64,000 nucleotides of DNA from Lolliginicoccus suaedae (GTDB taxonomy: Bacteria; Actinomycetota; Actinomycetes; Mycobacteriales; Mycobacteriaceae), in the NCBI RefSeq assembly GCF_008312885.1, contig NZ_VSSO01000001.1, positions 1 through 64,000 of the forward strand, given 5' to 3'. Within the stretch, counting starts at the first letter, position 1. Each line of letters opens with the position of its first letter. The translations under genes and the position numbers were made by a program. Positions 5,976 to 39,496 of the stretch are shown here, piece after piece. The notes under the pieces are model-generated. The model ran no database searches. It was not told the origin of the DNA and saw only the letters and a list, made by a program, of their open reading frames with translations.

Positions 5976-6032
5976 TCGTGGTGCCTGCCTGAAGCGTCGG
6001 CCGAGGCGCTGGGCCGCACGACATGTTGGCTG

Positions 6033-6082
6033 CAAACGCGATAGAAGCTGCTCGAACTCCGGGGCAGCTTCTATCGCGTTTG
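6033..6082. repeat. intergenic palindrome, 19-bp stem, GATAGAA type
   Basis: Perfect 19-bp inverted repeat (6033-6051 with 6064-6082) around a 12-nt loop. The arms contain AAACGCGATAGAAGCTGC and so are much richer in A/T than the other terminators here. It lies 57 nt behind the thiolase stop codon. The core AAACGCGATAGAA recurs in the palindrome downstream of gatB at 39357-39369. It could act as a terminator, but there is no T-run and the arm sequence is shared between distant sites. Confidence 0.85.
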
Positions 6083-6160
6083 GCGTTCTCCGGTGCTTTT
6101 GGTGCCTGGCGGCCGCCCTGCGGCTACCAAGCACCCGCAGCCGCCACGCGCGGGTGATGT

Positions 6161-26968: not shown

Positions 26969-27030
26969 TCCCCGGGGGGATTCGCGCGTTTGGTGGCCGG
27001 GCGCGGGTGGCGTCTATCCTGGCAGGTGCC

Positions 27031-37724: not shown

Positions 37725-39260
37725 ATGACTTCGAGCACCCCGATGGACACTGGATTGGACGCACGCGTGGTGGAACCTCTCGCTTATGACGATGTGATCG
37801 AGCGCTTCGACCCCGTGCTGGGCATGGAGGTGCACGTCGAGCTGCACACCGAGACGAAGATGTTCTGCCCGTGCCCCACCGAGTTCGGGGCCGCGCCGAA
37901 CACGCAGGTGTGCCCGGTGTGCCTCGGCCTGCCCGGCGCGCTACCAGTGGTCAACCGCAAAGCCGTGGAATCGGCGATCCGCATCGGCCTGGCGCTGAAC
38001 TGCTCCATCGCGTCGTGGTGCCAGTTCGCGCGGAAGAACTACTTCTACCCCGATCAGCCCAAGAACTACCAGATCTCGCAGTACGAGGAGCCCATCGCGT
38101 TCGATGGCCACCTCGATGTGGTGCTCGATGACGGCGAGGTGTTCCGCGTGGACATCGAGCGGGCCCACATGGAGGAGGACACCGGCAAGCTCACCCATGT
38201 GGGCGGGGCCACCGGCCGCATCGAGGGCGCCACCCATTCCCTGATCGACTACAACCGGGCGGGCGTGCCGCTGATCGAGATCGTGAGCAAGCCCATCGAG
38301 GGCGCGGGCGAGCGGGCACCGGAGGTCGCGCGGGCCTACGTCTCCGCGCTGCGGGAACTGCTCCGCGCGCTCGATGTGTCGGACGTGCGCATGGACCAGG
38401 GCTCGCTGCGCTGTGACGCGAACGTGTCGCTGCGCCCGCACGGGCAGCAGGAGTTCGGCACGCGCACCGAGACGAAGAACGTCAACTCGCTCAAGAGCGT
38501 CGAGGTCGCCGTCCGCTACGAGATGCGCCGCCAGGCAGCCGTCCTCGAGGCCGGGGGCGAGATCAATCTGGAGACCCGCCACTTCCAGGAATCCGATGGC
38601 ACCACCAGCCCGGGCCGCAAGAAGGAGACCGCCGACGACTACCGGTACTTCCCGGACCCCGACCTGCAGCCCATCGAGCCTGCCGAGGAATGGATCGAGC
38701 AGCTGCGCGGCACCCTGCCGGAGCTGCCGTGGGTCCGCCGGGCCCGCATCCAGAAGGACTGGGGCGTCTCCGACGAGGTGATGCGCGACATCGTCAACGC
38801 GGGCGCCGTGGAGCTCATCACCGCCACCGTGGAAGCAGGTGCCTCCGCGGAGGCCGCGCGCTCCTGGTGGGTGTCCTACCTGACGCAGAAGGCGAACACG
38901 GCGGCGGTCGCGCTCGCGGATCTCGCCATCACCCCCGCTCAGGTCGCGGCGGTCGTCGCGCTCGTCGCGGACGGCAAGCTGAACAACAAGCTCGCCCGCG
39001 AGGTCGTTGACGGTGTGCTGGCCGGAGAGGGCGAGCCGGAGGCCGTGATGGTCGCGCATGGGCTCGAGATCGTGCGTGACGACTCGGTGCTCGACAAGGC
39101 CGTCGAGGAAGCGCTCGCCGCCAACCCCGGGATCGTCGACAAGATCAAGGGCGGCAAGGTGCAGGCCGCCGGCGCGATCGTCGGTGCCGTGATGAAGGCC
39201 ACCAAGGGCCAGGCCGATCCCGCGCGGGTGCGCGAGCTCATCCTCGAGAAGTGCCAGTAG
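37725..39260 (+). CDS. gatB: Glu-tRNA(Gln)/Asp-tRNA(Asn) amidotransferase subunit B
   Basis: 511 residues. Activates the tRNA-bound Glu or Asp and receives ammonia from GatA. The core motifs are [16 protein letters not shown], the zinc Cys set CPC and [36 protein letters not shown], and [10 protein letters not shown]. The C-terminal YqeY-like helical domain (from about 390) binds the tRNA. TAGACT (37711-37716) ends 8 nt before the ATG, so it can be transcribed separately from pfkA and leaderless. Corresponds to Rv3009c. Confidence 0.96.
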
Positions 39261-39275: not shown

Positions 39276-39306
39276 GGCGGCGCGACCCATCGAAGGTCGC
39301 GCCGCC
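39276..39306 (+). terminator. gatB terminator
   Basis: Perfect 12-bp stem GGCGGCGCGACC/GGTCGCGCCGCC with a 7-nt loop, 15 nt behind the gatB stop, followed by a run of C. Confidence 0.8.
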
Positions 39307-39315
39307 CCCCGGTCC

Positions 39316-39424
39316 GCCACCAAACGCTGCCCGCGCTCGAACGGGCGCCTGCCACCAAACGCGATAGAAGTCGCGAGAAGCGATAGAAACGGCACGGTGT
39401 AGCCGGCGGTTTCTATCGCGTTTG
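39316..39424. repeat. composite palindromic repeat region with GATAGAA motifs
   Basis: GCCACCAAACGC occurs at 39316-39327 and 39351-39362. The second copy runs into CAAACGCGATAGAA (39356-39369), which is the inverse of TTCTATCGCGTTTG at 39411-39424. A further GCGATAGAAAC (39380-39390) can pair with GTTTCTATCGC (39409-39419) instead, so two alternative hairpins compete for the same right arm. The 13-mer AAACGCGATAGAA is shared with the palindrome at 6033-6082, and GCCACCAAACGC occurs inverted at 26986-26997. Confidence 0.75.
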
Positions 39425-39434
39425 CGGTCGGGAC

Positions 39435-39476
39435 CTAGGCTCCCTGCGGCCCAGGGCGAGGTCTAGGCTCCCTGCG
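39435..39476. repeat. short tandem repeat with CTAGGCTCCCTGCG core
   Basis: The 14-mer CTAGGCTCCCTGCG occurs at 39435-39448 and 39463-39476, a 28-nt period, in the gap before the convergent lipoprotein gene. Each copy is followed by a similar CCCA-containing segment. No function is evident. Confidence 0.6.
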
Positions 39477-39496
39477 ACCCAAGCCCAGGCCTGGCG

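Follow-up and report, generated by a model that had tools for sequence, protein, structure and literature searches.

The double hairpin between gatB and lppZ in Lolliginicoccus suaedae is one member of a dispersed, lineage-specific family of Lolliginicoccus elements, which share a fixed architecture, lie near the 3′ ends of genes and are mostly kept in place between species. Judging from their sequences, it is quite possible, if short of probable, that the elements are a lineage-specific set of about 90 candidate DNA sites near 3′ ends that selection maintains and that a protein would bind to form a two-way boundary. Judged by titles and abstract openings, the papers surveyed on REP and RAYT, on uptake sequences, on terminators and on the evolution of repeats do not describe this family. 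Coordinates without a contig label refer to the window, which is the whole 64,000-nt stretch of L. suaedae DNA analyzed here.

The gatB–lppZ element and its family

A sequence-only reading of the window had described one right arm that can pair with either of two left arms, together with sequence repeated in direct orientation. Both inverted repeats sharing the right arm were recovered (39356–39374/39406–39424, 19-nt arms, 89% complementary; 39380–39393/39406–39419, 14-nt arms, 93% complementary), as were direct repeats of GCCACCAAACGC (39316–39327 and 39351–39362) and of GCGATAGAA (at 39361 and 39380). The inverted GCCACCAAACGC that it had placed at 26986–26997 is present, isolated and with no element at that place, and the GC-rich hairpin that it had seen after gatB is also there, with arms at 39276–39287 and 39295–39306 beyond the gatB stop codon, which ends at 39260. 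The features of the locus, and the second element of the window, are as follows:

39276–39306, plus strand: GC-rich inverted repeat 3′ of gatB, a possible terminator (12-nt perfect arms, without a T tract behind)
39316–39362, no strand: minisatellite remains, GCCACCAAACGC, the last copy overlapping the start of the outer unit
39355–39427, plus strand: complete class I element in composite form (outer B, inner B, centre, inverted B), weight-matrix score 67.5 bits
39356–39374, plus strand: outer unit, B-type CAAACGCGATAGAAGTCGC, where most copies have a CAAAAGCACCGGAAACCGC-like A-type unit
39375–39393, plus strand: inner unit, B-type, in the outer unit's direction at an offset of 19 bp
39394–39405, plus strand: centre (22 nt separate GCGATAGAA and TTCTATCGC)
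39406–39424, minus strand: inverted B-type unit, the shared right arm
39426–39481, no strand: 28-nt tandem duplication, 82% alike, abutting the element
6030–6102, minus strand: second element, standard class I, 102.3 bits, with an orthologue in L. levis (outer A 6083–6101, inner B 6064–6082, inverted B 6033–6051)

The weight matrix matches the gatB–lppZ element and one other place in the window, at 6030. Rfam models at their gathering score find two tRNAs only in the window, with just subthreshold matches near the gatB–lppZ element.

Composite copies elsewhere in the genome, a point raised by the sequence-only reading, were indeed found. Allowing up to two mismatches, TTCTATCGCGTTTG occurs 96 + 100 times in the L. 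suaedae genome versus 1 + 1 for the reversed pattern, and a search of the genome with its own element region returned 45 matches. The family core pattern (GCGATAGAA-N22-TTCTATCGC, at most one mismatch) identifies 88 copies in L. suaedae, 94 in L. lacisalsi (genome G001) and 85 in L. levis (G002), with none for the reversed core pattern in these three genomes; Lolliginicoccus has three recognized species including L. suaedae, according to an excerpt of PMC12451644. The core pattern is absent from G003, the fourth genome of the GTDB genus, and from 297 other genomes in a 301-genome sample at family rank. In a scan of named genomes, Lolliginicoccus accounts for 75 of 78 among the matches listed, the others being one each in an Acidobacteria MAG, a Sulfurimonas MAG and Rhodanobacter, which by our own estimate are chance. 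With two mismatches, five of 121 genomes in an order-rank sample match (L. suaedae, and four others once each), and the control pattern also has matches in one genome. A plasmid origin was discarded, there being no match to plasmids; one match to the element was seen among viral contigs. No replacement family stood out in 400 kb of G003, a weak result given that the gene finder performs poorly at 58.7% G + C. The 400-kb pieces differ in composition within the GTDB genus (58.7% G + C in G003, which lacks the family, versus 68.9% in L. lacisalsi).

A class I copy is oriented and about 73 bp long: a 19-bp outer unit is followed by an inner unit of like orientation, then by the centre and an inverted unit. 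We aligned 155 distinct copies (72 from L. suaedae, a nonrandom sample of its 88, with 47 from L. lacisalsi and 36 from L. levis), leaving out three presumed chance matches (L124, L144 and L164) and two copies too near a locus end. All 155 carry the outer unit in one register; 146 of these units are nearer to type A (AAGCACCGGAAAC) and nine, including that of the gatB–lppZ copy, are nearer to type B (CGCGATAGAAACC). The sequence-only reading had proposed a partly duplicated palindromic element: the palindromic repeat stands, but a partial duplication peculiar to gatB–lppZ is rejected because the outer unit is in register in every aligned copy. The apparent second left arm is the family's outer unit in its standard register, and the oddity of the locus is best read from the alignment as a switch of unit type inside a fixed architecture, with no partial duplication. 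The same gap carries a B-type outer unit in L. lacisalsi and an A-type one in L. levis.

Counting from the first G of the core, the outer unit (type A, CAAAAGCACCGGAAACCGC) lies at −24 and the inner unit, of type B with consensus CAAACGCGATAGAArCyG, at −5; the centre has the consensus mCCyGGnwTyyC and the inverted B unit ends at +44. The units are about 19 bp long with the overall consensus CAAAmGCnnnnGAArCnG, and types A and B have CAAAmGC....GAA in common. Spacing is rigid: 167 matches in the fetched loci have 22 nt between GCGATAGAA and TTCTATCGC and three have 23 nt, a 36-nt-spaced match in G003 having been dismissed as chance. When inverted pairs of either unit type were sought with N34–50 allowed between them, 54 places were found in L. 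suaedae and none in the control, and the 50 listed of these 54 have N41 in 44 cases and N42 in six, with A and B units mixed. One class I copy has an A-type right unit (C2:239550). In L. levis, GAGAGAA replaces GATAGAA in one or both arms of copies near 63.5, 183.7 and 380.4 kb of G002:C1, the first of which has both arms altered alike at two positions.

A smaller class II has units at both ends and a differing middle core, GACACGCCGGTGCAACACGCCG. There are three copies in L. suaedae, four in L. lacisalsi, four in L. levis and none in G003; the L. suaedae copies, with a degenerate one in addition to the three, are as follows:

C1:943141, class II, core GACACGCCGGTGCAACACGCCG
C2:68578, class II, core GACACGCCGGTGCAACACGCCG
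C5:142517, class II, core GACACGCCGGTGCAACACGCCG
C4:65997, degenerate class II copy

Copies with a 56-nt arm spacing (C1:943141, C2:68578 and G002:C2:283505) had been considered as composites and proved to be class II. Of the 11 class II copies, ten are flanked by convergent predicted genes, and the remaining one, L244, has a weak reverse ORF to its left. Eight pairs of copies from different species, drawn from these 11, agree in both flanks. Several class II copies combine a B unit at one end with an A unit at the other; in these, as in C2:239550, the spacing is maintained although the outer units do not pair fully.

Position at gene ends and conservation between species

No aligned copy lies inside a predicted gene (0 of 155, overlaps of up to 15 bp allowed). 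By their neighboring predicted genes, the 142 copies that could be classified divide into 92 in convergent, 47 in tandem and three in divergent gaps (48, 19 and one for L. suaedae alone), counts that come from our own gene finder, include nonindependent orthologues and omit 13 copies that have a gene to just one side. Across 864 kb, an element occupies 16 of 64 convergent gaps of at least 80 bp, or about a quarter, along with 14 of 214 tandem and 0 of 130 divergent ones (convergent versus remaining gaps, p = 6e-7). In tandem gaps, 46 of 47 copies are within 174 nt of the upstream stop, and their orientation relative to the genes (20 versus 27, p = 0.38) shows no strand bias. Element position alone is not distinctive because stem-loops of many bacteria share the preference for convergent 3′ ends, as an excerpt of PMC1590033 describes.

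The convergent bias would also suit BIME-like topology or nucleoid sites for gyrase, an IHF-like protein or another chromosome-organizing protein, which would act on supercoils between convergent genes and not directly on transcription; REPs bind DNA gyrase, IHF and DNA polymerase I, as stated in part of PMC1525189. The 79 copies placed along six contigs are only mildly uneven in distribution (p = 0.034), which speaks against such sites, and a replication-domain function was set aside on the same distribution. The elements' exact geometry goes beyond what gyrase is known to require, a further point against topology sites, and we regard such sites as quite unlikely.

Short tandem repeats make up 24% of the bases flanking elements (264 flanks of up to 150 nt each), versus 1.8% after shuffling. 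In element-free gaps they account for 9.6% (convergent), 4.1% (tandem) and 2.4% (divergent) in G001:C4, a contig of L. lacisalsi, and for 0%, 3.8% and 0%, respectively, in the window. The GCCACCAAACGC repeats and the 28-nt duplication at gatB–lppZ are examples of such element-flanking repeats, and they differ among species: the GCCACCAAACGC minisatellite, which among 264 fetched loci is confined to the six that cover the gatB–lppZ gap, has two copies in L. suaedae and four in L. lacisalsi. Two other motifs were observed along the way. A perfect palindrome, GCTGCCACCGATATTTCGGTGGCAGC, occurs exactly in two of 264 loci, near an L. suaedae element (L104:1718–1743) and in G001:C4 (L218:9166–9191), and a AAAAGTTTCCACT-like motif lies in four to five noncoding gaps of G001:C4, far above expectation.

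The elements are mostly found in the same gaps across the three species. Where both flanks of an L. suaedae copy were located, an element is present in 11 of 12 gaps in 400 kb of L. lacisalsi (G001:C4) and in eight of nine in 400 kb of L. levis (G002:C1), one of these eight being loosely bounded at 1.3 kb; the combined 19 of 21 leaves out L. suaedae copies without both flanks located and comes from contigs picked because copies had been listed there. In the fetched loci, 48 of 51 orthologous gaps carry the element, most of them having been fetched because they hold one, and alignment finds it in two of the three misses. The gatB–lppZ gap itself, for which the sequence-only reading had suggested a comparison with relatives, contains the element in both close species and lacks it in G003, and five L. 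suaedae gaps located in 400 kb of G003 likewise hold none. The copy at L099 is present in L. suaedae only, being absent in L. lacisalsi and L. levis, and that at L056 was not detected in L. levis; at L099, a comparison with the empty site for a target site duplication found flanks too diverged to yield a clean junction.

Conservation is concentrated in the inner arms. In 48 orthologous pairs, divergence is 36% in the centre, 17% in the outer unit and 65% in the unaligned flanks, compared with 2–3% in the inner arms, where the search pattern used on the relatives had predetermined 18 bases; the 16 copies found by weight matrix in G001:C4 have three mismatches in 448 arm bases. Scores between 0.4 and 67 bits are empty in 1.29 Mb of overlapping loci, using a matrix that takes no indels and so misses indel copies (the 0.4-bit case, L002, has one extra base), and no substitution-decayed copy was seen in this scanned sequence. 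Solitary outer or inner units above 15 bits were absent from 464 kb (G001:C4 and the window). The 400 kb of G003 gave four weak unit matches of 15–20 bits, where a shuffle reached 17.7.

These observations bear on whether the family consists of REP/REPIN-like or MITE-like selfish repeats, spread by a since-lost transposase and tolerated in 3′ gaps. The elements are dispersed, palindromic, extragenic and restricted to one lineage, and REPs likewise favor convergent gaps (PMC1525189, in part). On the other hand, positions are kept across three species and the scanned sequence holds neither substitution-decayed nor solitary pieces. The element consensus has no GT(A/G)G head, a REP feature (PMC2817692, in part), and the L. 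suaedae genome has no match to the cognate Y1 transposase (Y1_Tnp, PF01797) at Pfam sensitivity. Eight proteins are predicted between close copies at five loci; seven belong to ordinary Pfam families and the eighth matches none, and at two further loci no gene is predicted between the close copies. A selfish origin is, in our view, unlikely.

A possible protein-bound DNA site or RNA hairpin

The alternative that we take most seriously, possible if somewhat doubtful, is that the elements are sequence-conserved bidirectional terminators or 3′-UTR RNA hairpins. In that case the inverted B units, transcribed from either side, would give an RNA stem that terminates transcription or shields the transcript's 3′ end. 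Folding of the arms is strong on both strands (mean z of −5.5 and −4.7 against simple shuffles), and the copies lie after stops and between convergent genes. Other strong hairpins are rarer between a stop and an element (6 of 57) than after element-free stops (36 of 154; p = 0.05), as would suit the element itself being the terminator; at gatB, however, a separate GC-rich hairpin precedes it. The sequence-only reading had taken that hairpin to mean that termination alone does not call for the element, but the element may still have a terminator role. On the opposite strand, 107 of 155 copies have a run of at least four Ts no more than 20 nt from the stem, but within 12 nt behind the stem such a run occurs in none of the 155 on the element's strand and in 18 on the opposite strand.

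Changes in the arms are few and mostly one-sided, in contrast to B. cereus terminators, which show compensatory evolution (PMC5381666, in part). A looser pattern yielded 180 copies with 42 one-sided and two two-sided changes, or 37 versus two in 179 copies once the copy with an A-type right unit is removed; most copies were fetched by arm patterns, which puts changed arms at a disadvantage in these counts. In 25 of the 37 one-sided changes a G-U pair remains on one of the strands (the element's own in 18 cases and the other in seven, p = 0.04 for the skew), and in 12 it remains on neither. Two 400-kb pieces searched without arm selection gave three one-sided changes and two two-sided ones, the latter matched and both in one copy. 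At the four outer arm positions, which lie outside the pattern of the named-genome scan, 27 changes are one-sided and one is two-sided. Positions beyond the arms correlate weakly, the strongest correlations being between neighboring positions; the correlation of pair 9–30 is weak (94 versus 76 expected). The G-U and unselected arm counts, together with the opposite-strand T runs, weaken the case against an RNA hairpin.

The outer unit and the unlike-ended class II copies hold their exact spacing without full pairing, which counts against a hairpin. To us, the near-invariant sequence, the unlike ends at equal spacing and the absence of strand bias point to selection acting on double-stranded DNA that a protein binds, and we infer that such a sequence-specific site is the favored account, with the hairpin a serious rival. 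A multisubunit, sequence-specific DNA-binding protein would occupy the units as double-stranded DNA, in a rigid geometry of inverted outer units 41–42 nt apart around a middle module, made up of an inner B unit and the conserved centre in class I or of the GACACGCCGGTGCAACACGCCG core in class II. A single complex might then work in both directions, as a boundary or roadblock that separates mostly convergent transcription units, halting read-through or holding supercoils or replication, and slippage at this barrier could have left the tandem repeats next to many copies as scars. A more specific proposition is doubtful: that there is a dedicated bacterial boundary system in which one sequence-specific protein, assembled on the three-unit sites at some 90 gene ends, stops transcription arriving from either side and may stop replication forks as well. 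If true, bacteria would have an equivalent of eukaryotic roadblock termination that uses two interchangeable types of unit and two middle modules.

Repeats scattered through bacterial genomes are usually regarded as mobile or in decay; the Lolliginicoccus family, whose places are mostly fixed, whose geometry is constant and which shows no decayed copies in the scanned sequence, offers a tractable example of a repeat that may be retained at gene ends by selection. A binding protein, if found, would test whether site-specific roadblocks separate convergent genes in bacteria; if the element is instead a terminator, a terminator with a near-invariant stem would have been explained.

Likeness to known systems

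The family invites comparison with several known systems. REP/BIME repeats with RAYTs in gammaproteobacteria are likewise high-copy, palindromic and extragenic with a bias toward convergent ends, and the 88 copies in L. suaedae are high-copy extragenic palindromes in the same sense; however, the Lolliginicoccus units are fixed in number and spacing, and their positions are mostly kept between species. Intrinsic bidirectional terminators are likewise capable of forming hairpins 3′ of genes, with a stem that is nearly identical from both sides. The Lolliginicoccus elements can form a stable hairpin but do not follow the stem directly with a U tract, lacking a T run directly behind it on one strand, and they differ further in the near-invariance of the stem, the extra outer unit and the tolerance of unlike outer units. 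Inverted DNA uptake sequences of H. influenzae and P. multocida, as described in part of PMC1590033, share the short invariant motif, the partly inverted pairs and the intergenic location, but the Lolliginicoccus elements have a fixed multiunit layout and about 90 instead of about 1,000 copies, and the many solitary copies of uptake sequences have no counterpart in the 464 kb searched for solitary units.

The proposed mode of action has a parallel elsewhere. The roadblock terminators of eukaryotes, bound by Reb1 or TTF-I, are protein-bound DNA barriers at gene ends, and the Lolliginicoccus elements would resemble them by analogy in how they act, with no homology claimed.
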